Source: Polytrichum commune (taxonomy: Eukaryota; Streptophyta; Polytrichopsida; Polytrichales; Polytrichaceae). Taken from it: 64,000 bases of DNA. The stretch covers positions 19,096,001 through 19,160,000 of the forward strand of contig OX485806.1 of NCBI GenBank assembly GCA_950295325.1, in the 5' to 3' direction. Of this stretch, positions 1-33,420 are shown in pieces. The first letter of the stretch is position 1. Each line of letters starts with the position of its first letter. The notes below the pieces were generated by a model. That model made no database searches and was not told where the DNA came from. It saw only the letters and a program-made list of their open reading frames with translations. The translations under genes and the position numbers were made by a program.

Positions 1-1
1 T

Positions 2-346
2 GGAAGGATCACAGCTGCACCCTCCAACACCATTCTAGTAGACGATTGCCCTTACAAATCTGTTTGCAATCCGGACGAGTGTGGTATCTTTCCCAACCCA
101 TTCACATCCAATCGGGTGCAAGACGCAGACATGACAAAGGTCCTCCTTCCTTACTTTCAATCATTGTTCTACTCACCAATGTCCGATGCACGCGAATTTG
201 TGGTTAGCCGTAGGTTTGGGCAACAACCTGTACGGCATAACGATGCAGTCAAGGTGGCAGTTTTGAAATCCAACGGGCTTGAAGAAACCGACTCGGAAAT
301 TGTAGAAAAATTGCAAATCGATCGAATAGAAGTAGCAAATAAATAA
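2..346 (+). CDS. FCP1/NLI-interacting-factor-like phosphatase, 3' part (partial at window edge)
   Basis: This is the C-terminal end of a protein whose start lies left of the window. The frame is open from base 2 to a TAA at 344-346. It contains NTILVDDCPYKSVCNP, which matches the acidic HAD motif IV (double Asp) of FCP1-homology (NIF) phosphatases, followed by a hydrophobic segment and a short basic tail. FCP1-domain proteins are Mg-dependent Ser/Thr phosphatases, often acting on nuclear substrates such as the RNA polymerase II tail. The same block, LIDDSPTKSVLNP, occurs in the opposite-strand gene at 1877-2644, so the two are paralogues in convergent orientation. The first few codons could be intron, because AG precedes base 15. 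Family assignment is good; the substrate is unknown. Confidence 0.7.
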   Translation, partial: GRITAAPSNTILVDDCPYKSVCNPDECGIFPNPFTSNRVQDADMTKVLLPYFQSLFYSPMSDAREFVVSRRFGQQPVRHNDAVKVAVLKSNGLEETDSEIVEKLQIDRIEVANK

Positions 347-793
347 GTAGGATTGTATGTCTAGTAACATTGAACACTATATTCGGTATTTGGAGACTTT
401 TTGTTGATTATGAGACTATATAAGGATGCACCTTTCAAAATTGGACCAGTAATGACGACTAAAAATTCCATATGTATAATGGTATGCTACTATTATTATA
501 CATAAAGGCATGGAAGTGAACAAAAATGTGAGGCATACATGAAAATAGTTGCGTATGAAATCACAACTCGTTATGAATGGAAGGGAAGGTGCGAAGAATG
601 AATGGAAGTTGAATGAATTAATTGGGATTGAAATACAATTATAATGGAAATACCATCAATGTCTTGAGTAACTTGGAATAGCATAGAAAGTAAGCACTTA
701 AATATGTTCTACACCTAAGCCCATTTAGGGAGTCCGTCCCACTAGTACGCTTCTAGACGTCACACTAGTCCGACCCATTATTTTTTTTTGCGG
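347..793. other. AT-rich spacer between convergent genes
   Basis: This stretch lies downstream of the + strand FCP1-like gene. It is AT-rich with no convincing coding frame, RNA gene or repeat. It probably holds the 3' UTR and polyadenylation signals of that gene. Confidence 0.4.
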
Positions 794-1830
794 CTAAGCC
801 CTTTTTTTTGGCGGCCTCCATGGCTCTAAAAATCTCAGGCCCACGACTGTATCCTTGTGTGTTGCCTGGACAGGAATATGTGTCGTTCTTGCATGTTTCA
901 GGACGCGCTCCCGAATTGTAAGAGGTGGTATTATAAGTAGAATGCGAGGGTGTTTGCGAAAGGGAACGTCTTGCGCTTCTCCGGAGGGCCAGACAACGAT
1001 CGGACTCGGAAGATGCGGCCTTGAGGGCGTGCCTATCCAAGGAGGACGTGGAGGAGGGCCGGGCACCAAGCGAGCGGGTAACCACCTGCGAAACAACGTC
1101 ATAGGAAGATAAGAATAGGAATGGAGTGGGGAAAATAATGAGGGCGGTTTGGGATGGGCGCTCGTAAAGAGAACGGCACGCAAACGGAAGACAAGGAAAG
1201 CAAAAGCGAGAAAGGGGTTCAGGGTTGAGGAGGGCACCTTGGCTTTGGGGACGTCCATGCGGGGAACGGTGGGAACGAGGGGGGCGTCGACGGGAGCATC
1301 CGGAGCCGATGGAACTATTGCAATTATGTTGGATGGCGGGGGGGAGTCGAGGCGTGGAGGGCCCACGATCGCGGAGGACGTTGCGGGGGGAGGAACGGAG
1401 TCGGCGGGGGAGGTGTGGCAACGGGGGCCTTCCATGCGGAGACACCGGCTCGGCCCGCGACGAGCGACGGCGTCGTCCCTCGAGGGCGAGAGGTGTCCCA
1501 AACGAACGAGCGTCCGTTTCTCCTTGGAGAGGGGGGAGGGCGACGGGGCGTAGGCGCGGGCGACAAGTGGTGGGGGCGGGCTGTTGACGACGCCGTCGTC
1601 GATGCCGACGTCGCGGGAGTAATCCACGGCCGAGGCCGCGTCGACCGCCGAGAACTGGTAGAGGGATGGCATTTGGAAGCCCGTGACGTCGCGGGAAGGG
1701 GAGGCAGGGGGCGAGAGGGGACGGGAAGGGCCGTCGACCACAGGGGCGTCGCATATGGGGGCAGACTATGGGCAAGAACAACAACAACAACAATCACAAC
1801 AACAAAAGACATCCAAAAACGAAGCAAGCA
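794..1830 (-). other. GC-rich block open in several frames, Pro/Ser/Ala-rich if coding
   Basis: Three overlapping frames are open on the minus strand and several on the plus strand, which is expected when GC is high and stop codons are rare. The frame 1741-794 would give a Pro/Ser-rich, low-complexity protein without a recognisable domain. A pyrimidine/TTG-rich run followed by CCCATAG near 1770-1800 could be a splice acceptor for a minus-strand exon. It lies just downstream of the stop of the minus-strand FCP1-like exon. I cannot tell a real disordered protein from a chance open frame. Confidence 0.25.
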
Positions 1831-1876
1831 TTAGTAAATGTGAACCACATGATACAAGCAAAGACATGGAGGCATT

Positions 1877-2644
1877 TCAAATCAATTTATTGAGTTTGGC
1901 GAGCCTCATGATGCTCTTGAATACATTATCGCGGGGGCTTAGCGCCGCATTGCCGAAGGGGTTGGACCTAACAAAAAATGGGATGCTACCGGCGTGGAGC
2001 ACGAGCCTTCTAAGGTAGGGGGCTAGCCTATCGACCAAAAATGTGTCTTGCCTATCGCCGGTCCAAGTGTCCGGGAAGATGACGTTGCCCGGGGGGTTCA
2101 AGACACTCTTGGTGGGGCTGTCGTCGATGAGGACGGTGTTCTCTGGAGTCGGCCACCACCCGTGCGGCGTCCCTTGCAGACGGGGGACGCCTCGCCAGAG
2201 TCTCGAGCGGAGGACCTTGAGGAACTGTTGTCCTCCGCCCCGACCGCCAAACTTGGGCACCGGTTGACCTTTCTCGTCGAGCAGCTCGTCGCAGTCCTCT
2301 TGGCCGAGGACGAGGCAAGGGCTCGGGAGATCGCGGAACAAGAAGTGCACGATGGGCTCGGTGTTCTCCATGACCATGGAGCTCCACACAATGACGTGAG
2401 CGAACTCGACCACCTCGCGAAGGAAGTCACGCAAGCCGGGACGGGCGCGGACAGCCTTGCGGTTAATGAGGGTGTCGAGCTCGCCGTCGTAGTCCCTTTC
2501 GTCGGGGTGACGGAAGGGACGCGTGGGGACCCTTGGGATGTGTTGGGTGTGACACAACACCCCGTTGAGGTCAAAAACGATGAAAGGTTTGTTCCGGGTG
2601 GGAGGTCCACTGGTAGAGGGGTTGCGACCAATCTCCGGGGGGTC
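1877..2644 (-). CDS. FCP1/NLI-interacting-factor-like phosphatase (C-terminal exon)
   Basis: The minus-strand frame runs from a probable splice acceptor (TTCATCACAG just before 2644) to TGA at 1879-1877, giving 255 residues. There is no Met before the catalytic motif, so an upstream exon is needed; I could not find it. Motif I is FDLNGVL (residues 24-30). The nucleophile Asp is present, but the second Asp of the DxD pair is Asn, as I recall for some plant FCP1-like proteins. A motif II-like VIVWSSM and the acidic motif LIDDSPTKS follow. The family acts as Mg-dependent protein phosphatases; the Asn may lower activity. It converges with its paralogue at 2-346. Base composition is much more GC-rich than that paralogue. 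Confidence 0.7.
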   Translation of the reverse strand, partial: DPPEIGRNPSTSGPPTRNKPFIVFDLNGVLCHTQHIPRVPTRPFRHPDERDYDGELDTLINRKAVRARPGLRDFLREVVEFAHVIVWSSMVMENTEPIVHFLFRDLPSPCLVLGQEDCDELLDEKGQPVPKFGGRGGGQQFLKVLRSRLWRGVPRLQGTPHGWWPTPENTVLIDDSPTKSVLNPPGNVIFPDTWTGDRQDTFLVDRLAPYLRRLVLHAGSIPFFVRSNPFGNAALSPRDNVFKSIMRLAKLNKLI

Positions 2645-2778
2645 CTGTGATGAACAACTCGACTAGTTTAATTCTATGATCCAATAATGAAATTTTGCGT
2701 AGAAAATGAAGACGGTGCATTATGGGGAAAGACGAGGAAGTGAGGAGAGTGCAAGGAAAATGTGCTCAAGGGCACACT

Positions 2779-4818
2779 TGCGAACGAGCGTTCGTGAATG
2801 AAGGCTGCGGGGGCGGTGCGCATCATTTACGAGCGCTCGTTCGTGAGCGCGGCTACACGTACATTTACGAGCGGTCGTTCGCGAATGAGGTGGACAGTGG
2901 GTCGCAGCCTTTCACGAACGAGCGTTCGCGAATGAGGTGGGTATGCAAGAATGAACATAATCTCATCAACATATACAACATACGAGAAGGGGTCGAGGGC
3001 AGAGAATTTGAAGCAACGCGATGCAGATAACATAGGCTCATATATTAATCCGTTGAATATTTACATTTCTCACGTGATAGTCTATCACATTTTCCTAAGG
3101 CAAAATGATGCCGTGTCCTACAAAACTGTTCGGCCCTAAGGGGGACCGCTGAAGAGGGCTCTCGCAAGGCCACTGGATGTCGATGAAGAGAAAAACATCG
3201 CGATGTTAGAGAGGTTACGAACGCGCGTTCGTTAAAAAATGGTATTCTCAGAGGAGAGTTACCTCGTCATCGGGGGGAGGGGTAGCGGCGCTGGACCGAG
3301 CAGCAGGTCCCTCCTCAACGATTAACGAACGCGCGTTCGTAACCTCCCCAGCTACAGCCGCCTCTGTCTCCATGGCCTCTGCCTCACGCTCCGGTTGAGA
3401 GGCCTGTGTCGCCTGGATGCGCAGTGCGTCTTCTTCCTCGGCGCCCAGGTCGAGCGCGTCCATCCTGACATCCTCCATCCACGCCGCATGGGTTTCTTCC
3501 ACGTCCATCCCATGCACCCCTGGTGCGTCATTGGGGCTCCCCTGCGTGTCCTCCACAATGACCATGTCAGTGTGTCGCGCAGAGTCATCGCCATGTCTGT
3601 CTACTACCCTGGGGACGACGGTGAAAGACGATGCATCGGTGTATGAGGGCAGTCCTACCCTTGAAGGGGGAGGGATGAGGACTGGAGGACCTGAAGATTC
3701 ACGAACGCGCGTTCGTAAATCCTCGTCCTCCTGGATGGCCGCCGCCACAGCATCGTGGGAGGTGGTCGAGGGAACCTCTGGTGGCGGAGGAGTGCCAACA
3801 GGCGTGGGGTGGGGCGCCTGCTGGCGGGAAGGCCCTCCGGTGAACATGCCCGGTGGAGGGGATTGGGAGGGGTATCCTCCAGTGAAGGGGTAGGCCGGCT
3901 GGGGGGGCGCCGAGAAGCTCTGCATACGCTGGAGCATGGCGAGGATGGCGTCCGTCTTCTCGTTCGACTGCCTCAGCTCCTCCTGAATTGCGAACATTTT
4001 CTTGGCATTCTCCTCTGCCGCCTTCGCCATGTCCTCCTTCATCTTTTGCTCGAGCTTGGCGTTAAGCTCGGCGACGGACAACGCCTCCTCTTTGACCCTC
4101 TTGTTTTTGTCAAAGTCTACCCCCAGCTCGACCATGATCTCCATGTCGCCCTCGTCCTCATCGGAGACCTCGATGATTGCCCCCGGAGGCAGCTCCACGT
4201 AGGGGGTCTTCTTCATCCTCCGCCTCGTGTTGCGGTACTGGTCCAACGTCGGTCGGGACCGTTGGTCCAGAAGGTCGAGGTTCTCCATCTTGGGAACCAC
4301 GATCGGCCTGGGCGACACGGATGTCGAGCATCCCCCGGGAGTGCCGAATGCCTCCGCTCCAGACGTTCTCGCGGGGAGGACATCTTGGGTTGTCCCCGCC
4401 GACGACCCCGTGTATCCACCCGGAGTCCCTTGCACGTCGGATGGATTTCCCGACGGCGCCAAAATGCGGAGAGGAGTGACGTCCAAGGATCGGAGGATCG
4501 CCTCGACGTTGTAGGAGGGCGCGGGCTCGTCGTCGTCCGTCTCCATGGCGGGCATGCCTTCGTCGACGGGCATGTTGATGTCCGTCCTCGGGAGGGACAT
4601 GTCCTCCAGGTCCATCGTGGAGGCCTTCGCCCTGTGCACGTGGAAGTCCTCCTCGTCGATGGCTTCAATGAAGCTGTTGACGACCAGCCCCAGCATCTGA
4701 GATTCAAGCAAATACGTTAGAAAATACGAACGTGCGTTCGTAAACATCAACGACGAGAAACAATGTCATCAAACCCAAGACAAGTTGAGGTGAACTTTAC
4801 GAACGAGCGTTCGTAAAT
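2779..4818. repeat. Palindromic 22-bp repeat family, cluster A (9 copies)
   Basis: The consensus is half-site TTTACGAACG, two variable bases, then the reverse complement of the half-site. Copies sit at about 2779-2797, 2826-2846, 2864-2886 and 2910-2931 (these four degenerate), then 3214-3235, 3322-3343, 3698-3719, 4723-4744 and 4797-4818. The copies at 3322 and 3698 lie inside the last exon of the minus-strand gene and are translated. Those at 4723 and 4797 lie in its intron 2. The rest are 3' of the gene. Confidence 0.9.
2860..3345. repeat. 3' end of the ParB/methyltransferase-like locus, duplicated at 12310-12790
   Basis: This segment holds two palindrome copies, the gene's 3' flank and its last coding bases. 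It aligns in direct orientation with 12310-12790. Shared landmarks are a GTGGGTCGCA-type stretch near 2900, 'GTGATAGT.TATC' near 3075, 'CCTACAAAAC' near 3118, 'GCGCTGG.CCGA.CAGCAG' near 3290 and the palindromes between them. I judge identity at about 70 percent by eye. Confidence 0.75.
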
Positions 4819-7579
4819 ATTAGTTGGAGAGCTTACCATCGCAGCGTACATGAACTTGCTGCCGCCACAAACGTTGTACACGGTCTCTCCGCTTATTGCC
4901 ACGCTCTGCAAAACGGAGACGTAGAACTCCAACCTGAGTTCCATCGCCGGGAAGACAGTGTACAAGGTCTCCTGCAGCAGATCCTTGGGAGGGGGATGGG
5001 GGATGCTGTAGATCTTCTTGAACGTAGTGTTCGCCTTGACAGGGGCTCGCCCATTCCGCAGCGCGTTGTACGTCAAGAAGACGAGGCTGACCGCCCCCAC
5101 CTGTTTGTTCCCCCTGGCCTCGTTGATGGCCACGATCCCTTCCGTCTTGGCGGGCACGTAAGTGCTGTGGAAGATGCTGTACTCAAATTTGATCGACTTC
5201 TCGTACAGGTCGACTACAGCAGAGAGCTTCTCCTGCTCGACTATCCACAGCCAAACGTGAGGCTCCCTCATGTCCGGAGACTTGTGCTCCTTGAACTTGG
5301 CCATGAAGGGGTCGTAGAAAGGTATGTCCTTCCCCCCCTGCCTCGACGCACCGGGGATCCCCCTGAAATCGATCAGGGCAAATGGGCACCCCCGTCGATC
5401 CTCCCTCACCTCGGCCCTGCTCATGGTCCGGTCCCACTTGGAAAATGTCACCCTCTCCACTCCTTTTGTCAACAGACAAAATCTGGCCACTCCTTCGAAT
5501 GTGGCCAACCTCTTCCGCGTCAAAAAGCTTCTGTATTGCTCCACCTCCTGGGGATCCGTCTCGGTTTTCTTTGTCCTCTTGTTCCCCTTCTGCTTCAAAA
5601 TGGAGGCGTGCTCCTTGACAAGACAACGCATTGAGGGTCCGGAGATGTTGTAGTCGACCTTGAACATCTTCCAGCTGGCCCAATTAATGTCTCCGTCGGC
5701 TAGGATGAGTGCGTACTCTGGTATTAGGGCGCTCAACTCCCTCATTGCAGCAGTCTTCAGCTTGCGGTGTTCGCACCATTCCTTGATGGAATACGTGCCG
5801 GGCTTGTGTCTTGGCCTCTTCAAAAATATCTTCGGGTATGGGATGGTTTTTCCCACAGTGTTCCCAAGAAGATGCACCGCGCACCTCTGCAACTCGGACT
5901 CTGTTAACCCTTGAAGGGACCTGAAGAACTCCCTCAGTAGTGGAGGGGCCTCCCCGGTCTTCTCCGCGCTGTACTTCTCCTCGGTGTCGGGGTTGACCAG
6001 ATCGCCCGAGCTGTGCGCATCAAAAAATTGTGTCCACAACTCCCAAGTGTCCCTGTTGCAACAGATGAGGCGGAGCTCACCCTTGAGCTCCAGGACAGAC
6101 TTGGTTGTTGTAGACTTCATGTCGATGGAGGAGAACTTGTCCACCATCGCGTCGCAGAATGCCTGCAGCAAGAAAAACATCAGTAACGCACAAAATACGA
6201 ACGCACGTTCGTAAGTTTGAATGTCAAAGAACTTGAAAATTTGAATGTCAAAGATATTTACGAACGTTCGTTCGTAAACTCACCTTCCATTGTGGAGACG
6301 GCGTCTTCGCGTTCTCCCTTTCTTCAGGGGGGCACCCGTGGGCGACCCAGACGTCCCTTGCAGCCACTATGTTGGCTGCCCACGACGCCTCGAAGGCCTT
6401 GATTTTGTTGCCGGAGTTGAGGAAGGTGGATATCTTCCGCAGCTTGTCCCAATCGTCCGACCACACCAAGAACGCCTTCCAGTAGCGCAAGTCCTCCTTC
6501 AGCTCATGCTGGAAGTTGTCGTCCTTGAGAATTATTTGGGACGCCTCCAAGCTGTGTTGGCCGTCTATGATCCAGAACTCTCCATTCTGGATCCGTGGCC
6601 AGTCCTTCTCCGTCGGACGGGATGTCAGCCCCTTCGGCATGACGCAGACGGTCTGCCTGTCCCACTTGACGTTGTTCATTAGATTATTTATCTGCCACTT
6701 CACACCACCGCTTTCGCGAGAGCGAACCACCCATTTGTTGGGGGACATCTCGCACTTGAAGCAGTCCACGTTGAATGTGAAGTGGCGTCCCATGGGCCAG
6801 CAATCCTTCGAGTAGTTGTTGAAGTCTCGAAGGATCCTCGTGGCCTTCACAGCGTCAGGGTTCTCACCCTTTTTCAAGGGGGTGGGCATTACGACAGGCG
6901 AGGTCACCTCTGCGGTCTCCGTTACTCCCGATTTCTCCATCTCCTCCCTTGTCCTCTTCAATGGCGTGGAGTGTCTACTGGGGCCCTCCGTCGCCCTGCT
7001 AGCGGAAGGCACAGGCCTGGGTGCACTTCTAGATCCTCCTGCCCCTGATGTGGATGGTTTCCTGGGGCTCTTCTTCTTCTTGTTTGCCTCAGTGACCACA
7101 CTGTTGTATTTGGAGATGTTCAATGCAAGGGCGGTCAATTTCCTTGCAGTCCAGTATGGGCTCAACGCATATTTGGAGAAGAGGCCGTCCAGGTCGAAGT
7201 GCTTGGCATCTTCCGCTACGTTATTGGTGGCGTATTGGTAGGAGAAGGTATTTTTCTGAAAATGCAACAAGAGGTTGATATGATCCTTCTTGTTCTTCAT
7301 GTCCAGAATTACATACTCCCCCTGGGCCTCTATGGACTCTATCTCCCACGTCTTCATTTGAACCCACTGTTCGGGCTGGTCCGGTCTTGTCTCCAGCTCG
7401 TAGGTGAAGCGCATGCAGAAGAGGCCGTCCCCGATCTTCTCTGGCAGTGCCGTCCACTCCCCCATGAAGTCTTCCTTGGGGACATAGTTGTCGTTGCCGT
7501 TATCGTCTAACACCGACTCTGGGAGGCCATCGACCTTCACCGCGAACATCTCAATGGCGCTTCTGCTTGATCTTGCCAT
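3248..7579 (-). CDS. Large ParB-like / degenerate DNA-methyltransferase-like protein, three exons
   Basis: Three minus-strand exons, 7579-6284, 6162-4837 and 4696-3248, join in phase 0 through good sites (AAG|GTGAGT, TGCAG|GC, ATG|GTAAGC, CTCAG|AT) to give 1356 residues. Residues about 336-347 read IIDGQHSLEAS and are followed by an FLNSGNK motif, as in ParB-type N-terminal domains. Exon 2 has the layout of an N6-adenine methyltransferase: ALIDFRG where DPPW/Y is expected (about 694-700), HVWLWIVEQ (about 734) and a glycine-rich TVYNVCGGSKFMYAAM at its end like the SAM-binding motif. The missing DPPW suggests no catalysis. Exon 3 carries an IIEVSDEDE SUMO-binding-like patch (about 1048), a coiled coil (about 1072-1134) and a Pro-rich tail. 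A basic NLS-like run is at about 166-174. An acceptor-like TTGCAG directly before the ATG hints at a 5' UTR intron. The domain calls are inference. Confidence 0.6.
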
Positions 7580-8239
7580 CTGCAACAGAATATAAACAAT
7601 TAGTGACTTTACGAACGAACGTTCGTAAGTGACATGCATATCCCACAGACTACGCAGTGTTAATGCGTCTTTGCAATTGATGTAATTATATTTACGAACG
7701 TTCGCTCGTAAATGAGGGGTTGCAAGATCATATAAATTTTTAGTATTGAGTTTACGAACGAGCGTTCGTAAAAGATATGAAGATCAAAGAGACTACTTGT
7801 CATGAATGTGTTTGTAATATATTTGGTTATTTTTACGAACGATCGTTCGTAAAAGATATAGGTTTTATAGGTTTGGATTCATTTACGAACGTGCGTTCGT
7901 AAGTATGTCCATTTGGTCTATCTTTTCGGATATTTGGTTGATTTATCTTTTGTAAGTACATGTGATTTGTCTTATTGGTGTTCGCAAAATTGTATTTGTT
8001 CTTTAGATATTCATAGAGGTTCATATTTAAGTTAAGGTTCCTTCTGAGTGATATTTTGAGTATATTTACGAACGTGCGTTCGTAAATATAGATCATTTCA
8101 AAGAACGTGGAGTGCGTATTTACGAACGCACGTTCGTAAATGGAGGTTCGGTATGCAGTGTATGTCCATTTACGAACGAGCGTTCGTAAATGGAGGTGGG
8201 TATGCAGTGTATGTCCATTTACGAACGAGCGTTCGTATA
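6193..8239. repeat. Palindromic 22-bp repeat family, cluster B (11 copies)
   Basis: Copies lie at about 6194-6215 and 6257-6278 (both in intron 1 of the minus-strand gene), 7608-7629 (just upstream of its ATG), 7691-7712, 7751-7772, 7832-7853, 7882-7903, 8065-8086, 8119-8140, 8169-8190 and 8218-8239. The last three are spaced 49-50 bp apart and share the spacer 'TATGCAGTGTATGTCCA', so they are a short tandem duplication. The central two bases vary (CA, TT, AA, AG, AT, TG) while the arms stay almost perfect. Confidence 0.9.
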
Positions 8240-8778
8240 TGTGATGGTTTTGGGATCCCCTGTCCGTACATATATGTATTCGTGTATATACGAATACGTA
8301 TATATACGTATATGTATATAACTCACTTATTAGCTACTCTGCTTGCAGCCGTGCCTGCAAAATTTTGGTCAGAATGATGCAATTCTTCAATCATAAAGCA
8401 ATTGAGATGCAGAATGAGATGCAGAATGAAACATGAAGAAAAGAGTGATAGTTCACATTGCATGTAACAAAAGAAATTGAATTCAAGAAGCAACATTTTC
8501 AGAATGTGAGAGGAGTTGGAAAGGATAACAAATTACATTGAAATGCTGCACACTGCAATCCCTGCTTCTTCTCTTAAGTTTCTGAAAATCCCAGAAATCC
8601 TCACAACTGCACACTCAATTGCCTTTCAAATGCACACTCAGATAACTCTCTAATGCAGACCTCAAGCCTTCACAGCTTATATACAAACCCTAGTATACTC
8701 CTATGTACACAAAACTCACAACCTTGTAGCTCTCAAGCTTCTGAACTCTTAAGCAAACCCTAAACTCTCAAGCTTCCC
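8240..8778. other. AT-rich spacer without a recognisable gene
   Basis: It opens with an AT-rich hairpin-prone stretch (GTATTCG...CGAATAC at about 8277-8300 within TATA/CGTATA runs). The rest is non-coding. It interrupts the palindrome-bearing region, which resumes at 11588. Confidence 0.4.
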
Positions 8779-9110
8779 TAAACTCTCAAGCTTCACTTCT
8801 GAAGCTTCCCTAAACTCTCAAGCTTCACTTCTGAAGCTTCCTTAAACTCTCAAGCTTCAACTCTGAAGCTTCCTTAAACTCTGAAGCTTCAACTCTGAAG
8901 CTTCCTTAAACTCTCAAGCTTCTAAAGATCACCCTCAAGCTCTCAATCCGAAACTCTGAAGCTTTCCTACTCAAGCTCTCAAGCTTTTGAAACTCACAAA
9001 CTCTCACACTGAAAGCTTTCACAAACTCACAAGCTTTCACAATGAAAGCTTTCACAAACTCAAAAGCTTTCACACAAGCTCTCAATCTGAAATCTCTCAA
9101 AACTTGCAAC
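8779..9110. repeat. Minisatellite, 32-bp unit rich in AAGCTT
   Basis: Starts of TAAACTCT at 8779, 8811, 8843, 8875 and 8907 give an exact 32-bp period. The unit combines CTCAAGCTTC with CTGAAGCTTCC. From about 8940 to 9110 the array decays into related units built on GAAAGCTTTCACAAACTC. Short open frames here are products of the repeat. Confidence 0.85.
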
Positions 9111-9291
9111 AAAACTAATTTAAAACTTCAAGACTAAAAAAAGCAAGAGCTTCGCTCTCTAAACGCTCCGCTCCTCCTCTCCTCGAAATGACAAATGAGG
9201 AGAAGAGGAAGGGGCGCGGGGAGGTAGGTGCGCCGCTAGGGTTTCCCAGCACCTGCCACGTGGCACAACTCCACTGGCTAGGGTTGGGAGA

Positions 9292-9367
9292 GAGATGGGA
9301 TGGGATGGTATGGGAGGTGATGGGAAGGGATGGGATGGGATGGGATGCGATGGGAGATGGGAGATGG
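9292..9367. repeat. GGGAT pentanucleotide microsatellite
   Basis: An imperfect run of ATGGG/GGGAT units follows a GC-rich stretch at 9170-9290. No gene is visible around it. Confidence 0.8.
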
Positions 9368-9919
9368 TTGTATATTGGAACCCTTCATGTTATTCTCATG
9401 CTTTGACATATTTATATGTAATGGACGCGTTTAAGGCATTAACTTGACAAGCTTAGTTCAAATACATGAATTTTACTCATTTTATTTCCTTAGTACCTCT
9501 ACATTTGGATTCCTTGTAAACATATTTTAGGAAAATATGCTCAGTTAATTCGTAATAAACAATGCATGTCACTCCCTAGGTTGTCAATGTAGAATCCACC
9601 CCCAAAGATATATATCTGGTGTTTTAAAATATAGTTTATGTAAGAGCTAGATATCTTTCAATTAATTCGATGGTTCCTCAAATAAATATTACATGCAAAA
9701 AAGAATTCATAATAATATGAGATTGCGCAGAGTTGCTATACGATAGGATGTCAATTCAAGTTCTAATATTAGGTGTTAGCTTGAACTAATGCATTTCTGG
9801 AGTGGTCAACTATTTTGCTAGCATCAACTACGAGCTTGCGATGAATGAAGTTAATGCAATTACAAGGGTTTTTGAGGAGTCAATATTGTTTGTGTGTGTA
9901 ATGTATCCTAGTAACAATC

Positions 9920-10027
9920 TAAAACCTAAACCCAAATACCACATACACAACTTTCACAAACCCTAAACCCCTAAACCCTACCCCCAAACCCTTACCCTAA
10001 ACCCTAACCGCAAACCCTAAACCCTAC
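9920..10027. repeat. Interstitial degenerate plant telomeric repeat (CCCTAAA)n
   Basis: About a dozen CCCTAAA, CCCTAAC and ACCCCTAAA units with spacing errors lie between about 9920 and 10027. An isolated CCAAACCCTAAAA occurs near 10454. The motif is the standard plant telomere repeat, here internal and diverged. Confidence 0.8.
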
Positions 10028-11163
10028 ATCCCTGCATCTTTTTATCTTACCAACCTTTCTTATATGTGGCCATGTTGTTTTCTGAGGGCAGGTCAAATTG
10101 GTCTACCAATGTTGGTTGGATGGAGAATGCTTAATTCCGTTCATAACAACTATAATAATTGATAATGATGGCAATTGTCAATTTCACATTCCAAATTAAT
10201 AGATTTGAGATAAAACTTTGGTTTAAGTGATAAGTGAAATTTCAAATATTCCCACTTTCACCTTAATAGTTCTGAGTGAAATTTCATCACACAATCCACG
10301 ATCTTATTATAATAACATGCATGTCTTAAGACTTCAATTTATATCAACACTTTAAGCTATGATGATGCACATCCTTCTCATAGGATGCAAAACATATATT
10401 AATTGTAAGTACATACTATTGTATGCACCATTCCAAATTAATAGTGCATTTCCCCAAACCCTAAAAGTCTATTTCCAATAGGACCTCAACTCATTTAATC
10501 ATGTGTCAACTTAAACTAACAATCGAACAATGCATTCCACTATAAATATCACCAATGATCTAATAAACATTTAACCAATGTGTATCCGTACCCTTACAAC
10601 AAGTGGACGAAAATTCAATTTCCAATAGGACGTCAAACACATAATAATTGTAACTATGATTCAACGTTACGGTAGCTAGTATGGTTTCAAGTCTCAATGA
10701 TCATTACGCTATCATACTATGCAGCATTACAAATTGATTAATCCTTCCTACTCATGCCATTTTAATTCCTTATTTTCACACCTAGATACCATTTGAAAGA
10801 AGACCTAACTTACATATATTATTAGGTATAATTAGTTCATAGTGTCTTCAATCTACCATAGTGCAAGCCATTATGGATTAACCCGATTTTTTAGTTGTAT
10901 TCATGCACTTGGTGACCATATTACGGTCATTTTTTGATGTGAAACATATGATACCTATAATTTTAGGGGCGTCCGCAACATGTTTCTTAGCCACTCTGAC
11001 CTCATTGTGTGTGTGTGTATATATGTGTATATATATATATATATATATCTATGACTTCGACATTCATAACTTTATTAGGCATCAATTGTCAATTAACTTG
11101 GACTTCATACCTTAGTCGCAAATCATTAAATATTCAATGTTAACCATCTCTATATTTAGACAT

Positions 11164-11197
<34 letters not shown>

Positions 11198-11587
11198 CGT
11201 ATATACATATATTTCGATGAGACCTTGGTCACAACTAAGGTGTGCAACCGATTTATATATTTTTAATATGTTGGCGTGCATGCAAGGCATGTTCCATACA
11301 TGACAATGCTATTTATATAATTCCGCATGGATGGAATGGGAGATTGTTAGGTCAAAGAAGGCGGCGGGAATCTGCTTTTTAAAGAGCATCCAAGGGATTT
11401 TGAACCAGCGGGGTGAAGTACTTAAAGCTCTTCCCCCCACAACAAAGCTCTTTTCAGCGGCACATGCAAGTGTGCGCTCTACAGACCTCACCAAACGCGC
11501 TCAAGCCATTTCGTGTGCGCCAACCCTACACCACCCATGTACAGTACAGGCTGTACCTACCGCATATACCGCCGTAAATACCGGAAC
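10028..11587. other. AT-rich spacer with dinucleotide microsatellites
   Basis: No gene was found. TG/TA microsatellites lie at about 11005-11050 and 11165-11200. A short non-AT-rich stretch at 11330-11587 leads into the next palindrome cluster; its open frame (11331-11630) shows no known domain. Confidence 0.5.
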
Positions 11588-12662
11588 TTTACGAACGCAC
11601 GTTCGTAAAGATGAAGAGCTTCAGGTTTAGACAAACGATTCGGACCTGGACATGGCAAGGATTTACGAACGCGCGTTCGTAAATTCCACATGAGAGCATG
11701 TTCTGGATTGGGCTACTCATATGAATAATCACATGCACGTAATCCATCTCAGTTATTTACGAACGTGCGTTCGTAAATATGCCTTCGAGGACCATGCAGA
11801 CATATTTGACCCTTATCTATTGGTACCTGATGGTCGGTAATTTACGAACGTGCGTTCGTAAATCCCACAGGAGATCATGTTTTGGATTGAGCTACTCATG
11901 GATAGTCACATGTACATCATCCATGGCATTTATTTACGAACGTGCGTTCGTAAATATGCCTTCGAGTTTCATACATACATATTTGACCCTTGTCTATTGG
12001 TACCTGTTGGTCGGTAATTTACGAACGTGCGTTCATAAATCCCACATGAGAGCATGTTCTGGATTGAGGTACTCATATGGTTAGTCACATGCACTTAATC
12101 CATGACAGTCATTTACGAACGTGCGTTCGTAAATATGCCTTCGAGGATCATACATACTTATTTGACCCGTATCTATTGTTACCTGATGGTCGGGAATTTA
12201 CGAACGTTCGTTCGTAAATACATGTCATTATTGTCTACGCATCCAGCAACACATCTTCATTCATGCACATCAGTATGGCAGTAATTTACGAACACAGAAT
12301 AGCAAGAAAAATATGCTCATCGCTCGTCCGTGAAGGATGTGAACACGGGGTCGCACCCATTTACGAACGTCCGTTCGTAAATGGGTAGGTACGCAAAAGT
12401 CAACATAATCAAATTCACAATATGGAGGTGCTCAGTGTTCAAAATATTGTTGGAGTTGATTCAGGCATCATCTGCAGATTTGCTAATTTTGTGCGTATGG
12501 ACAAGTGTTCTCTTGTGATAGTATATCGCGCAGGTTCCTAAGTCAACATGGTACTTTGACCTACAAAACCGATATTCCTCAGGGTGCTCTCATTTGAGGG
12601 ATCTCGAAGGCCGCCGGATGTACATGGAGAAGTTACTGAGGTCACGAACGCGCGTTCGTAAA
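11588..12662. repeat. Palindromic repeat cluster C, including a ~178-bp tandem array
   Basis: Palindromes lie at 11588-11609, 11662-11683, 11756-11777, 11841-11862, 11933-11954, 12018-12039 (one arm base changed), 12112-12133, 12197-12218, 12360-12381 and about 12642-12662, with a half-site near 12285. Between 11662 and 12218 the spacing alternates at about 94 and 85 bp. This defines three tandem units of about 178 bp, each with two palindromes and two alternating spacers ('...GAGAGCATGTTCTGGATTG...' and '...GCCTTCGAGG...'). The spacers differ visibly between units while the palindrome arms stay nearly invariant. Confidence 0.9.
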
Positions 12663-12790
12663 TGCATGTGGCGTTCTCGGATTTCTGATTTCGTCGTCGG
12701 TTGTATGTGGACAGGCGCTGGTCCGAACAGCAGGGCCCTCCTGGACGACTAACGAGTGTTCTCCTCTTTGTCCATGTATTGTTTACATTA
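12310..12790. repeat. Decayed second copy of the 3' end of the ParB/methyltransferase-like locus
   Basis: It aligns with 2860-3345 in the same orientation, including the palindrome before 'GTAGGTACGCAAAAGT', the GTGATAGTATATC stretch and the block around 12720-12760. The reading frame of the gene's C-terminus is not kept. The similarity stops where the DUF7869-like unit begins, near 12800. Confidence 0.7.
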
Positions 12791-12807
12791 GTGAACAACC
12801 TAGACGT

Positions 12808-15800
12808 ATGCTTAAAACGTTTTTTTGGGACGCGCGTTCGTCTTTGTGCGTGAGGTTCTCCAATGGTGCACCAAAATTTGTTTGTCAATTTTGGGCCATT
12901 TATCTCCACATATATTCTATCCTCTCTTGTATGCATTGCGGTGGTGGTTGGGTTGATCATGTCCTGGTGGTTGGTATAGGCTGTATGGCGTTGCATGTGG
13001 GTGATAGTTCATTGGAGTTGTCGACGTATGCATCGTCATCCGATGCTGAATGTGAACTGTCTTCCCCGTCGGCAGATAGTAATGGTGTGCCAAACGTGAG
13101 GGGGGTGTTTGTGGATACATCCTCCCATGAATCTTTGGAAGTCCACGAACAATCTCTGCATTCCGGAGATGACCACGATGACATTCCGTTGTGTGCCGGT
13201 TTCGGGAGGGAGCAATGGGTTGGCCTTGATGTCGTTCTATTCAACGAGGTTGGTGTCCCGGTGGCAGATGGTATATGTAGAAACTCCAATCCCCGTGATT
13301 GTGTCGATGCCAACGCCCTAGGTCTCGATGATGTTGGCGTGTGCATCTTGAACTCTTTGCTTCCGGTAGAGTTCCCGGTGACATGGAGATTTTCCTTGCG
13401 TCGATGGCCGCTTCGTCGAGTTCTACATGAGGAAGTGAGTTTGTGGGATCATGAGCGGCGGCATAAGCAAACACAATTAGCTTTGTTGGCCACAACACGT
13501 CCTCGCAAAGGCCTCCGTAGATATGATTCAAACCGTGTGCCTCGCGGAGATAAGGAGCGTCGACGGGATCGGCTTTTGGGGGACGAATCTATCCGTCTAG
13601 TGTCCGGCAAGGATTGTTGCGCGAGGAAATGTTGCCAATTTTTCCCGCGGGAGAAAATTAGATCTCTGCGTCAAGAGATGTGGCTTGCGGATTTTCGTAT
13701 GAGGTCGGCTAAGAAACTCGAGGTCCACAAAAATTTGCACCTTGATACCCATGGGCATAAGGTGGTGACACTTGAGAATGTTGATGTGTGTTGTACAGCG
13801 TGGTATACCATCCACGCCGTCTCCAAGGCTGACTTTTATAGGTTTCGAAAATATTCATCATTGGGTCGCCGCTCTCGATTTCATGGCAACTCGGGCACAA
13901 AGAAACCTAGGGAGGCTACACTGCAAGCGTCCGCGACACTATCCACCATCATAGTGCCATTGGCCGATGCAATGCCCCACAAGACGAGGACATTGTCGTC
14001 AGGGGAGAAGGTTGTTCAAATGGTGTTGCCCACGGGCACAAAATGGAAGAACATCTTAACGGACATCAATGAAGTGGGTCGCATAGCGGGATGTGGGCCC
14101 ATTTCTTTGTCCAAGTTGAGTGTGATTAAAAACCAGCAGTTTGCGTAATACATTCTGAAAAGACCCGGGGACAAGTTCGCTAGATGTACGACGTGTGAAA
14201 AATACAAAGGTCTTCGAGACGCCCACCCCATAGGCACTGAATCTCATTCCAGACACCAGAAAAAATATATTGAACATGTCAACAATCAAGAGGCACACCG
14301 TCAAGATTACTATAAGAATCGTGCTCTATCCATAATGAGGCCCACAGAGGTTCTAACAGTCATCCATGATAAAATGGACCACGCCAAAACCGCATGCCCT
14401 TGTTATGCACGCAAAATAAAGGCCACGGATGGTCTCTTCAAGTTGCCCGTAGCTGTCACAGGTTTGTATGAAATCACAACTACGTGTTTAAAGTCTATCA
14501 AATTTTCTTGGATGTGTTTGGCAAATGTCCAACTCCATACATCCGTTTAGTGGTTATTTGATTATTTTGGTCACGCATCGTTTGTTTTTTCCAGGTATGA
14601 TTGCCCACGGCCATGGGGACGTAAAGTATGCCCATTATGGTTTGGATTTTTACCCTGGGGATGCTAACCACACGGTGGGTTCATTTGCAAAACTGTTGCG
14701 CGATCTTGAGAAGCCACCGGTACATTCTTCCCGTGCACTTTTTGATGGTTGTGGAACCACATCCCTTTATGAGGCAGTGCTTTTGGGGAAGGAGGTTTGT
14801 ATGTCGTCATTGCCAGAACCACCCGGAGAGCCCATTTGTGCAAAACCATTGCCTCCAACTCTCCACGTTCAACTTGATAATTGTGCGAAGGACAACAAAT
14901 GTCGATACGTATTTTGTTTTTGGTCATTGCTCGTGGCGAAATGAATCTTCAAGGAGGTGTTTGTGTCTTTCTTGATGGTGGGACATACACACGACGACAT
15001 TGATGCATCATTCGGACGGTGGAGCATGAAGTTGCATGAAGAAGATTTTCCAACCATACCTCTTCTTATGAAATCATATATGAATTTGGACCATATGCCA
15101 GTAATTCCGCACTTGATTGAGGAAGTACCAAATTTCAAGGCCTTCATCAAGCCATACATGTTGAAGGGAGGGGACCGTTTGGTGGGGCATACCAAAGCAC
15201 AACAATTCCGATTTTATATGAGGGACGATGGTCTCCCGGCCATGCAATTCAAGCTTTTGTGCACATCTCCTAATTGGGGCCCGGATGATGGTATACTCGT
15301 ATGGCGTCAAGACAATGATGGGAAATGTTTGGTCCCGGATGGGGAACCAAAGCCTTGCAAACCCGAACCCATGAGGAATGGGCCGGAAATCATCAAAGGC
15401 ATATCCGGATTCATTGAATATTGGAAAGAGTTGTGCGAGGAGGACATCACAAGACGTGTTAGAGATACCCATGAACCGTTGATCGCGTATTGGGATCGCA
15501 TTCGCTCAGCCTTGATGACACTTGGTGGCGACACCCGTACGACTTTGACGCAAGGATTTTGGCCACAAAGTCGTTTGACGGTTGTCGAGTCCGATACTAT
15601 GTTTTTCAGCAATGGAGACGTTCGTGAAGAGTTCGCAATGGACGAGCATTACGTTGGCCCTGCCCGCAATCGACCGGCACCGTCGTTTCGTGTAGGTGTT
15701 GATTGCCATGAAGGGTATTTGGTCCTCGTACGAGCTGGGGATGAGGAGCATCCCAAGCCAATTTGGTTGGTAAAAGCATTGTCTTCACCCAATTTTGTTC

Positions 15801-16114
15801 GAACTAGCCCCAACTTTCGTCAAATTGAGGTGGAATATTGTCGTCCAAGCACTAAAGACCACAACGTGCTCCGCACTTATTTAGGTTGGGACACCAAAAA
15901 GAATTTTAAGTGGACAGTGGACTCAGCGTACACACCGGTTTGGATAAACACGGATACTATACTTTGTGCTTGGAAGCCGCGCAAAGGTTCCAACACAGAA
16001 GCAATGACCATCCCCCAAAAACATATACATTTTGCCAAAGACAACTTGGCACGTATTGCAGCTGCGGAAAATGACGCCGAGAATGGATATGAAGCGGAAG
16101 ATGGAGATGGGTAA
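12808..16114 (+). mobile_element. DUF7869-like transposon protein, copy 1 (two in-frame stops)
   Basis: One frame runs from about 12808 to 16114, broken by TAA at 14146-14148 and TGA at 14941-14943. A GT-AG intron fits at 14462-14594 (GTCACAG|GTTTG to TTTTCCAG). The N-terminal part has a Cys cluster (CCARKCCQFF) before an LRQEMW motif, then CTTCEKY. The core reads LDNCAKDNK, then FVSFLMVGHTHDDIDASFGR, then a long conserved C-terminal region. I recognise this layout as the DUF7869 family of repeat-associated proteins, probably RNase-H-fold DDE-like nucleases. At both stops copy 2 has sense codons (GAA and GGC), so the breaks arose in this copy. The family name is from memory and needs a profile search. 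Confidence 0.65.
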
Positions 16115-17171
16115 ACATAACATAGGTGAAAGTTAACGGCGGGAAAAAACATTAGTACTTAGTAGTCTTGGTTTTTAATAGACTTAGTAGACTTGTCACA
16201 CTCCATTGTGGTATACGTTTGGGATGTGCCATCCAAAACCATAAGAACCTTACTTATGGGATGCGCACCCCAAACTCTATAATGACATAAACCATTTGTT
16301 TTTTATATTCGCTTGTTATTTTCCACATGGAGTTCACGTTTTCATTATAATTGCAATTTTCTATTTTTAGTATTAGGAATATTCTTTACGTGCGAATTTT
16401 TAAATTGTCATGTTCTTGATGTTCCCAACATTCCATATGCCCACAATATTGGCATCCCAAACTATGGGCATATTTTATTTTGAGACTTTCAAAAGTCTCC
16501 GATTAACGAATATAGTGTTATTGTATTTTATGGTATCTTCAGTTTCCTCCTGCTGGGTACACACCATCCAGTTCCACGCCATCAGCTTTTGCGTGCCCCA
16601 CTTCGGGGCTCTCACGCGGTCCAATAGAGGCGAAACAAGTTTCAGAGTCGCACAACCCAATGGAGGTTTCACCAGTGAAGAACAACTTGCACCATGTGCA
16701 ATGGACAGATGGATCAACTCTGGTAATTTATTATTGTGTCATTTATTATTATAGTGTCATTTATTGTTTCGACAACGTTATTGTGTAAAGGTTATTGTAA
16801 TATCAAACACACATTTCATTACCAATTCAGGGTCATTAGCATAAGTATACTTGAATCTGTATAAATCCAGACTCGCTTAAACGTGCATGTGTACGCAATT
16901 TTGGTTCAGTTGCTACCGCATATGCGAGTTATGAAATCATGACAAGTTGCAAACATATATATGTATGGGTGTATATGTGTATGGGTGTATATCTGTATAT
17001 GTGTGTATATGTGTATGGGTGTATATGTGTATGGGTGCATATGTGTATATGTGTATGGGTGGATATGTGTATATGTGTATGGGTGTATATGTGTCTATGA
17101 GTGTATATGTATGCACGAGTGTATGTAAATTAGTAAGCCAAATAAATGCGTGTCACTTTGTCACCGTGCAG
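16115..17171. other. Spacer with a possible small exon and a microsatellite
   Basis: A short block near 16470-16520 (GATTAACGAATATAGTGTT) recurs downstream of copy 2 at about 33770, so it belongs to the transposon-like unit. A plus-strand open segment at about 16548-16721 ends at CTCTG|GTAATTT and could be an exon. A TGTATATG/TGTATGGG microsatellite fills about 16947-17125. Confidence 0.45.
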
Positions 17172-19388: not shown

Positions 19389-19682
19389 TTTAAGTTATGG
19401 CATGTTACAGGCATTTATAGCACAATATTCAATCGAGTGGACGCCTCCTAGCATAGAATTGGTGTTTCAATGAAGAGGATTGTGGGTGCAAACCTCCTGT
19501 TGTGTGACAGTCTATGCAAAAGCCCATTGGAAGCAAAGAGTATTTGTCTCGCATGGGCAGGTCCATCCAAAGTGTCCACGAGTTCCCAATGAGTTCCCAA
19601 TGAGTTCCCCATGAGTTCCCCACATACATCCCAGAAGTCCCAAAATCATCCTAAAGTCCCATAATGTTTAATATCGCGTTTA

Positions 19683-19822
19683 GTGTGTTCGTTCATGTGG
19701 GCCAAGAGAATATAACCATGGGATGCCCTAATCTAGTGCAAGGAGACTCATATTAAGTATGAATTGCAATAGGTTAGGACATCACATGGTTATATTCTCA
19801 GGGCTCACATGAACAAACGCAC
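19683..19822. mobile_element. MITE, first of a tandem pair
   Basis: It is 140 bp with long imperfect inverted ends: GTGTGTTCGTTCATGTGGGC on the left against the complement of GCTCACATGAACAAACGCAC on the right. The inversion continues inward through AGAATATAACCATGGGATG. No coding capacity. It repeats at 19892. Confidence 0.75.
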
Positions 19823-19891
19823 ATTGCATAATAATGTTATGTTAGAATACATACAACTTAGTCAATAGAAATTTCTCAACATTATTAAGTA

Positions 19892-20032
19892 GTGTGTTCG
19901 TTCACGCGGGCTGTGAGAATATAACCATGGGATGCCCCAACCTAATGCAAAGAGACTCATAATAAGTATGAATCCGCATTAGGTTAGGACATCACATGGT
20001 TAAATTCTCAGGGCTCACATGAACAATCGCAC
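19892..20032. mobile_element. MITE, second of a tandem pair
   Basis: It starts 209 bp after the first copy, and about 70 bp of flanking sequence ('TTAGAATACATACA.CTTAGTCA') is duplicated with it. The pair therefore arose by tandem duplication rather than by two insertions. Confidence 0.75.
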
Positions 20033-20099
20033 ATTGCTTAATAATTTTATGTTAGAATACATACAGCTTAGTCACTAAAAATTTCTCAACATTGAATGA

Positions 20100-31480: not shown

Positions 31481-31499
31481 CCACGCGAATATACAGGCA

Positions 31500-33420
31500 T
31501 GAAATGGAAAAAACATATTGTTGGGCGTAAACGCAGTTGGCGAGAAGGCTGGGTTGGACCCAATTTCGTTGTCAAAATTGAGTGCAATAAAAAATCAAAC
31601 TTTAGCGAATACATCACAAAAAGACAAGGCAACAAATTTGCATGTTGTTCCAAATGCGAGAAGTTGAAATGCCTTCAAGATGCACACACGATGGGGACAT
31701 AATCCTATGCAGCACATCAAATAAACTATTTCAAGTATGTGAACATGCAACACGCACACCATAATGATTACTACACAAATCGAGCTTTGTCCATCTCTAG
31801 GCCCTTGAAGGTCCTTACAATCATCCATGACAAAATGGACCATGCCAAAACAGCCTCACCATGTTTTGTAAATCGAATAAAAGCCACGGATGGCTTTTCT
31901 AAGCTACATGTATCGGTTACAGGTGAATTTGAAAACAATTGCATTGCATTACCTAAACACAATTTTGTGCTTCTAGGGTTGTACTTGGGGCCATGGATGT
32001 ACACCATGTGAATTTATTTTTTATAGTTGAATATTAAACCGTTGGGTTGGCATTGCATGAATGATTATACATGGACATGGTGATGTCAAGTCTGCTCATT
32101 ACGCTCTCGATTTGTATCCGGCGGATTCAAACCACACGATAGGGTCATTTGCAAAGTTTTTACGTGATTTGGAGAAACCTCCGTCTTATTCTTCAAGATT
32201 GTTATTTGAAAACTCAGGGTCAACACCTCTATATGAAGCTGTCTTGGATGGAAAAGATGTATGCATGCACTCGTTGCCGGAGCCACCAAGTGAAGATGTG
32301 ATTGCCACGAATTTGCCCCCAACTATGCGTGTACAATTGGATAATTGTACCAAGGACAATAAAAGTAGATATGTTTTTGCATATTGGTCGTTGTTGGTTG
32401 CGAGAGGCATTTTTAAGGAAGTGTTTTTGTCATTTTTGTTGGTAGGACACACGCACGATAATATTGATGCATCTTTTGGGCGGTGGAGCATGAAGTTGCG
32501 AGAAGATGATTTTCCAACAATCCCATTGTTGATGAAGTTGTACATGAATTTGGAGAACGTCCCCATATGATTGAGGAGGTTCCCGACTTCAAGGCATTTA
32601 TAGAACCGTATATTCGAAGTGGAGCTCACCGATTGATCGGGCATACGAAAGCACAACAATTTCGGTTCTACATGCATGACGATGGTGTCCCCACCATGCA
32701 ATACAAGTTGTTGTGCACGACACAAGACTTGAGCCCACCGGAGGGTCTCCTTGTATGGCACGTTGATAGGGAGAGAATGACGATGTAGCCAGACGGAGAG
32801 CCCAAGCCTTGCAAACCAATACCCATGAAGAATTTGGAGGATATTGTTAAAGGCATATCAGGCTTCATACAATATTGGGAGAGTTTGAGGGTAGCGGATG
32901 TTGGTGCATCGTGTTGGCTTCGTTACGGAAGTTGGATACAGTATTGGACACGTGTTCGTGGCGCCTTGGCAAACCTTCACCAAGATACACCCCTTACTTT
33001 GAGGTATGGGTTTTGGCCACAAACACGTGTCAATGTACAAGCTTCGGAAGCTAGTCTTTTGGGAAATGGAGAGGTTCGAGAGGAGTTTGATGTAGACGAC
33101 CATTACGTCGGGCCTACTAGTAGTCGTCCCCCACCATCTTTCCGCATTGCAGTGGATTGTCATGAAGGCTATATACTTATTTTGCGTCCTGAAGATGAGA
33201 CATATGCAAAGCCAGTGTGGGTGGTAAGAGTTTTGTCCAAATCAAATTTTGTAATTTCCAGCCCTCATTTTCGGCAAATTGAGGTGGAGTACTACCGACC
33301 GATGGCACATATTAGTCATATGTGTGCTCCGCAAAATAAAAGTAGAGTGTGGGTTGAACTTAGGAACGCTCCAACTCCATTGGGATTGGATGAATATCCA
33401 TATACATTATTTCATAACAA
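31500..33420 (+). mobile_element. DUF7869-like transposon protein, copy 2 (decayed)
   Basis: It aligns with 14035-16000 of copy 1 along its whole length: CCSKCEKLK, the TIIHDKMDHAKTA stretch, HGHGDVKSAHYALDLYP, LDNCTKDNKSRYVF, SFLLVGHTHDNIDASFGR, and the C-terminal DDHYVGPTSSRPPPSFR region. The N-terminal third is missing. Frameshifts and stops occur near 31700, 32010-32050, 32570 and 32786. The acceptor of the intron seen in copy 1 is not conserved. It supplies the sense codons missing in copy 1. Confidence 0.7.

Follow-up and report, generated by a model that had tools for sequence, protein, structure and literature searches.

Lineage-specific palindromic sites carried by a large DNA transposon family in Polytrichum commune

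Why should some 30 near-identical palindromes of 22 bp crowd into about 10 kb of the Polytrichum commune genome? The stretch that raises this question is a 64-kb piece of contig OX485806.1 (the window), which lies at C4:19096001-19160000 of the genome used here for comparison (407.8 Mb in 64 contigs; C1 and C4 are contigs). We find that the palindromes are lineage-specific address sites in a large DNA transposon family, a feature wider than the preliminary description of this DNA had supposed, and we consider it probable that they are operator-like sites, carried by the family, for a protein that the same family encodes.

Within the window, 30 palindromes of the form TTTACGAACG-NN-CGTTCGTAAA were found at up to three mismatches, all of them within 2777-12662 and 15 of them exact, in agreement with the earlier report of about 30 near-identical copies in ~10 kb and none elsewhere in the window. 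The chance expectation is 0, the pattern being absent from 100 dinucleotide shuffles of the window, and when the tolerance was raised to seven mismatches in the rest of the window, the extra matches all stood at six or seven. The palindrome centre takes 10 different dinucleotides among the 30 copies; between 177-bp tandem units, the spacers differ at 7-13 of 63-72 positions and the arms at 0-1 of 20. That the arms are nearly invariant while centre and spacers are free, as had been proposed, is confirmed by these units and by the diverged-subfamily comparison given below.

The palindromes lie in a whole DNA transposon of ~16.1 kb (373-16519), the BLAST ends common to its copies being at 371-373 and 16519-16521. 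It is bounded by terminal inverted repeats (AACACTATATTCG at 373-385 on the plus strand, and 16507-16519 on the minus strand) and by a target-site duplication, ATTG (369-372 and 16520-16523); 4-bp duplications were also found in other elements, TATG at C1:639-648 kb and AAGT at C1:610-629 kb. A 65% direct duplication (2872-3328 and 12321-12755) had been considered as long terminal repeats, a reading that was dropped because the element ends lie at 373 and 16519. The element carries three genes. A NIF-like phosphatase gene occupies 1877-2560 on the minus strand (a listed open reading frame with a provisional start codon; Pfam NIF, 2e-13), and a DUF7869 gene region, encoding a candidate transposase, occupies 12808-16114 on the plus strand (Pfam DUF7869, 1.8e-16 and 3.4e-14 in two open reading frames); both have homologues in other copies, and the DUF7869 gene of the window copy has at least one in-frame stop (14942-14944). 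Between them lies a minus-strand gene encoding 1356 amino acids (3248-7579; exons predicted by a splice model at 7579-6284, 6162-4837 and 4696-3248), which we named DGQH after its IIDGQHS motif. A DUF7869 alignment gave a best E of 0.53 against the PDB, and text searches of one open-licence library found no paper on DUF7869 and, among the entries and abstract openings listed, no description of the palindrome-bearing element.

Seven of the 30 palindromes are located at the DGQH 3' end or towards NIF: four between the two genes (2777, 2826, 2864 and 2911, together 2777-2932, with three mismatches each), one directly past the DGQH stop codon (3214-3235) and two within the DGQH coding sequence (3322-3343 and 3698-3719), the last with the same sequence in a diverged copy. 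Each DGQH intron holds two, at 4723 and 4796 in intron 2 (4723-4817) and at 6194 and 6257 in intron 1 (6194-6278), where the one at 6257 adjoins the 5' splice site. Nine lie upstream of the DGQH start codon (7608-8239) and ten upstream of the DUF7869 gene, namely eight at 11588-12218, most of them in a tandem array of ~177-bp units, one with 15-bp symmetric arms (12360-12381) and a last one at 12641-12662. The outer 2.4 kb on the left and the outer 3.9 kb on the right of the element contain zero palindromes. In some copies the symmetry extends beyond 22 bp, with arms of up to 17 bp (8061-8090, 8165-8194 and 12355-12386 in the window; also loci L032 and L039); at least three extra symmetric pairs occur in 25 of 214 copies of this type versus ~8 in re-paired controls, an excess that near-duplicates may inflate.

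Genome-wide, the palindrome of the window element, which we call A together with its lineage, has 2909 exact copies (reversed control, 0). The 86 of these that were listed all lie in five stretches of contig C1, each bearing pieces of the same element, and hence the listed copies are not evenly dispersed. The genome-wide count proposed in the preliminary description thus shows an uneven spread of the listed copies but not a motif limited to one locus: what had been taken for a single gene locus belongs to a transposon dispersed in many copies. The spacing is rigid, with 2909 copies having two central bases versus one with 0-1 and one with 3-14. When 26 of the 30 palindromes were compared with a diverged subfamily copy (C1:2228-2248 kb; four with more than six gaps were excluded, and a few of the 26 face no palindrome), identity amounted to 457/514 in the arms (89%), 37/52 in the centres and 491/846 in the flanks (58%, alignment noise included). 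The palindromes of both DGQH introns survive there despite the diverged intron sequence around them, and overall the arms have outlasted the divergence of synonymous sites, introns and promoters. Slower change of the arms is not seen in every comparison of close copies (arms versus elsewhere: 5/400 vs 60/5880, 7/260 vs 124/3641, 3/200 vs 36/1301 and 4/180 vs 154/1821), and the constraint is clear only at larger distances.

The element itself occurs in further lineages, each with a palindrome of its own. A second palindrome, GTTTGGGTCG-NN-CGACCCAAAC (B), first met at a decayed homologue (C1:2474-2481 kb; 39% in exon 1), occurs 9231 times in exact form genome-wide (control, 0). A complete B element (C1:610757-628840) matches A in its three genes and in both DGQH intron positions; it lacks A palindromes altogether and contains, at up to two mismatches, 40 of type B, of which 17 lie upstream of DUF7869 (in a 78-bp array), 13 upstream of DGQH, four in intron 1, three in intron 2 and three at the 3' end, so that the B layout mirrors the A element region by region. 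Between A and B, DGQH diverges most, with identities of 34% in exon 1, 37% in exon 2 and 30% in a later stretch, compared to 52-62% for DUF7869 and 42% for NIF. Searched with a codon pattern that covers FW[IL]IDGQHS and its near variants, the genome gave 489 matches (reversed control, 0), and 13 loci with different codon variants were sampled from the first 100 listed. Six belonged to the A clade (50-92% to A) and had A palindromes, which were decayed at two loci, five belonged to the B clade and had B palindromes, none was mixed, and the remaining two were truncated and had no palindrome.

Near the window insertion, a fragment belonging to a more distant lineage (profile match, E 4e-5) led to 67 genome matches in several identity bands, among them 95, 66-74, 65 and 58%, and a third palindrome, GTTCCTCTCG-NN-CGAGAGGAAC, was found inside a longer inverted repeat in an intron-2 window of the 74% band. 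It has 71 copies in the genome (control, 0), and 47 of the 50 that were listed stand beside DGQH loci of the 66-74% band, the other three having no such locus nearby. Within the listed range, third-type sites occur at 9 of 13 loci of this band, including 8 of 8 at 73-74%, and at none of 32 loci of other bands. Six loci have one 86 bp past the exon-2 match; others stand upstream, at 1.5-1.7 kb (a position corresponding to intron 1), at 4-7 kb and, in arrays, at 12-33 kb. In none of the sequences examined were two palindrome types found together at up to three mismatches. The half-sites TTTACGAACG, GTTTGGGTCG and GTTCCTCTCG agree in length, in a centre of two bases, in TT at positions 2-3 and in CG beside that centre, the rest being mostly different. 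A possible fourth type, CTTCCAGTCG-NN-CGACTGGAAG, was rejected, with only three exact genome copies, all of them no more than 1 kb from a DGQH locus of the 65% band (three such loci). As part of the short intron-2 stretches read from distant lineages had no palindrome, the palindrome habit is shown for three lineages, not for every one. Palindromes with GGCGCTGTCC and GGACTTCCAT arms recur in pairs ~475 bp apart at C1:2260-2290 kb and C1:2450-2482 kb, apparently as parts of another repeat.

The way in which the arms change is informative as well. Among 214 distinct A copies, 194 changes were one-sided and 19 two-sided (14 complementary), where 10.4 two-sided changes were predicted from independent arms; among 158 B copies, a set that includes a few subterminal look-alikes with four mismatches, 72 were one-sided and four two-sided (1.5 predicted). 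The changes are mostly one-sided, and it is the sequence itself that is kept and not merely the ability to pair; the mild symmetric excess in A fits a symmetric binding site or some copying from arm to arm. Of 61 changes at the positions of the A half-site that belong to a CpG (5, 6, 9 and 10), 56 are C-to-T or G-to-A, as expected from the decay of methylated copies. CpG retention had also been tried as proof of hypomethylation and was dropped, as it does not discriminate.

Which product of the element might read such sites? DGQH is under purifying selection: compared with the diverged subfamily copy, dS is 1.2 and dN/dS 0.095, with 0.009 for residues 256-432 (dS saturated) and 0.44 for residues 1141-1356, and against three closer copies the whole gene gives 0.21-0.44. 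A first look returned 1082 candidates in the genome, among which 97 copies of exon 1 were scored. The third exon is acidic and coiled-coil-like, with a sub-threshold match to HAUS-augmin3 (E 0.001-0.003). ParB itself binds palindromic sites. The motif of DGQH resembles those of DndB and GmrS, ParB/Srx-fold proteins with DGQHR or DGQQR motifs (excerpted text of PMC4619093), and this candidate fold resemblance rests on the motif, no profile scoring above threshold: the best ParB/Srx-type profile, GmrSD_N, reached E 0.034-0.13, the better value corresponding to 14.7 bits against a cut-off of 33.2. All members of alignment A1 that cover the motif place have DGQHS, with S where DGQHR has R. A reading of exon 2 as a decayed DNA methyltransferase was abandoned, the resemblance being by eye only and no profile of the beta-class DNA methyltransferases matching; the residues flanking intron 2 (4837-5450 of the window, minus strand, and the exon 3 start; NVxGGSK..AAM) resemble, likewise by eye, a decayed SAM-binding motif of such enzymes. 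In viral contigs a pattern scan gave 0 matches and a protein scan 12 stretches, none confirmed, and a phage protein search gave a single match (E 6).

The closest known parallel is provided by the VANDAL transposons of Arabidopsis, which encode VANC anti-silencing proteins (excerpts of PMC5735166 and PMC10398659). VANC motifs lie in introns and upstream regions, are tandemly amplified and differ from family to family; the sites are 8-9 bp long and arrayed in one orientation, and no word beginning 'palindrom' occurs in the main text of PMC5735166. As far as these excerpts describe the system, the likeness lies in short, lineage-specific internal sites that crowd introns and gene-upstream regions, often in tandem, and in a presumed regulator that diverges faster than the presumed transposase. 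The present family likewise has an element-specific, tandemly amplified motif that is dense in introns and other non-coding sequence and different in each of three lineages. The differences are the 22-bp palindromes with rigid spacing, two of them coding, and the standing of binding and anti-silencing, which are demonstrated for VANC and putative for the present family. Pfam searches gave no DUF1985 or DUF287 match, so that the proteins are unrelated to VANC by these searches, and a Pfam scan met no MULE transposase gene (VANA), DUF7869 being found instead. The palindrome system therefore looks as if it worked in the manner of VANC and VANDAL without being a member of that group.

CACTA (EnSpm) elements have ends that start with CACTA, a 3-bp target duplication, a TNP2-type transposase and a TnpA protein that binds repeated motifs. 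The present family resembles them in being large and multi-gene, in having CACTATA within its terminal repeats and, if our reading is right, in a regulatory protein that binds repeated motifs. It differs in ends that begin AACACTA, in the 4-bp duplications of three elements (ATTG, TATG and AAGT) and in sites that are internal where CACTA sites are subterminal; no Pfam match to a TNP2-type transposase was obtained in the scanned open reading frames of the element.

From these observations we infer that the palindromes are very probably binding sites of a protein encoded by the element. A symmetric dimeric protein would bind the 10-bp half-sites of the rigid 10+2+10 palindrome, and DGQH is its probable identity. 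DGQH is the best candidate because the sites cluster within and around its gene, because it is under purifying selection and because its divergence exceeds that of DUF7869 and NIF. With many sites before all three genes and in the DGQH introns, a bound protein would identify the element as self and sustain its transcription or shield it from silencing, in the way that VANC acts on VANDAL elements; that activation or anti-silencing is the purpose of the sites is suggested by this analogy, and we propose it only tentatively. Each of the three lineages would pair its own protein version with its own palindrome: different palindromes in matching places are as expected if each element family has its own address tag, and a shared frame with differing bases would be expected of a dimeric DNA-binding protein family whose specificity changes. 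Both ends are present in the element at C1:639-648 kb, along with the TATG duplication, 43 A palindromes (up to three mismatches) and fragments of the other two genes, and it yields no DGQH match at E 1e-3; its palindromes persist without DGQH coding sequence, and the protein would have to reach it in trans. A private address code can be envisaged, and we hold this possibility nearly in the balance, in which each lineage has its own DGQH and a palindrome of the frame KTT-N5-CG-NN-CG-N5-AAM, with regulation or protection confined to that lineage and the non-autonomous elements that depend on it; the TT of the outer part and the CG of the inner part would be fixed and about five bases would carry the specificity.

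Several observations weigh against this interpretation. The decayed remnant around the window insertion has no palindrome, 4 of the 13 loci of the 66-74% band lack a listed third-type site, and three of the five short intron-2 stretches taken from more distant lineages held no palindrome, a fourth held the third type and the fifth a palindrome with three genome copies. All three genes travel together and diverge between lineages, and linkage therefore does not single out DGQH. Searches of Pfam, NCBIfam, PHROGs and the PDB gave sub-threshold matches only and no recognised DNA-binding domain in DGQH, and a single-sequence structure model of its exon 1 was uninformative (pLDDT 34). The window element has two coding sites, unlike the mainly non-coding sites of VANC, two-sided changes in A arms are mildly in excess (19 vs 10.4), and CpG retention in the DUF7869 region shows no clear separation between the window element (0.88) and a relative without palindromes (0.76).

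Other readings account for part of these data. The DUF7869 protein, as the presumed transposase, might bind the palindromes for synapsis or strand transfer; it too is encoded by the element and divergent between lineages (52-62% identity), and the element without DGQH coding sequence retains many palindromes. The sites nevertheless avoid the element ends, with none within 2.4 kb on the left and 3.9 kb on the right in A and none within 5.3 and 2.7 kb in B (up to two mismatches; three look-alikes with four mismatches lie near one end), they are found in introns and upstream of genes, and the DUF7869 gene diverges less than DGQH while the sites change completely, all of which makes this role unlikely. 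We regard as somewhat less likely still a host transcription factor or silencing protein that the elements exploit or whose targets they are. Such a factor could likewise impose rigid spacing and strict arms, but the 86 listed A sites (of 2909) are all in element stretches, so that no host use is seen there, and different palindromes per lineage in one genome would call for a separate host protein for each.

The palindromes could also act as RNA or DNA hairpins, in splicing, small RNA production or cruciforms, instead of being recognised as sequence by a protein. They form inverted repeats, some of which are intronic, and both the longer symmetric arms (25/214 A copies vs ~8) and the two-sided A changes (19 vs 10.4, with 14 of 19 complementary) would suit pairing. 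A hairpin is nevertheless hard to reconcile with a centre of nearly always two bases (lengths of 0-1 and 3-14 occur once each, against 2909), with the dominance of one-sided changes among changed pairs (194/213 in A and 72/76 in B) and with palindromes in intergenic arrays, and we consider it quite improbable. The preliminary description had offered a site for a dimeric protein or a tiny self-spreading palindrome. Rigid spacing, one-sided changes and lineage-specific types favour the binding site; self-spreading, for all the very many copies with varying spacers, is scarcely credible, as in four comparisons of copies 92-99% identical, one of which covered the tandem arrays, no indel of at least 8 bp holds a palindrome core, element stretches account for all 86 listed copies, and the spacers are multiplied together with the palindromes as tandem units.

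Some further features of the locus were recorded. The window element is inserted next to a third-lineage remnant (C4:19076001-19096000 and window 1-343) with a DGQH exon-2/exon-3 fragment and a NIF gene 33% identical, between which lies a long retroelement polyprotein reading frame, Ty3/gypsy-like by eye. The NIF phosphatase family usually carries DxDx at a place where the NIF-like protein of the remnant has FDLNG instead, and such copies may therefore be inactive. A second DUF7869 copy (31493-33786; 66% DNA identity) has a right end like that of B elements and is probably truncated, with zero palindromes and zero DGQH match in the surrounding DNA. Subterminal imperfect palindromes resembling the B site (four or five mismatches) occur at 16217-16238 of the window, C1:2483027-2483634 and C1:628458-628677, in ~98-bp units near B-type ends, and are possible transposase sites. 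Copies of an inverted-repeat element at 19681-20093 and 49676-49763 are unrelated in sequence to the palindromes, and an HVA22-family gene is also present in the window.

If binding by DGQH were correct, the prediction would be direct: three protein versions and three palindromes, with no cross-binding. The three site types at matching places in one genome amount to a natural experiment in the evolution of DNA-binding specificity. Among transposons, VANC is the known instance of sequence-specific anti-silencing proteins that evolved together with matching sites, and a second system with unrelated proteins and another site geometry, if true, would show that this strategy arose more than once.

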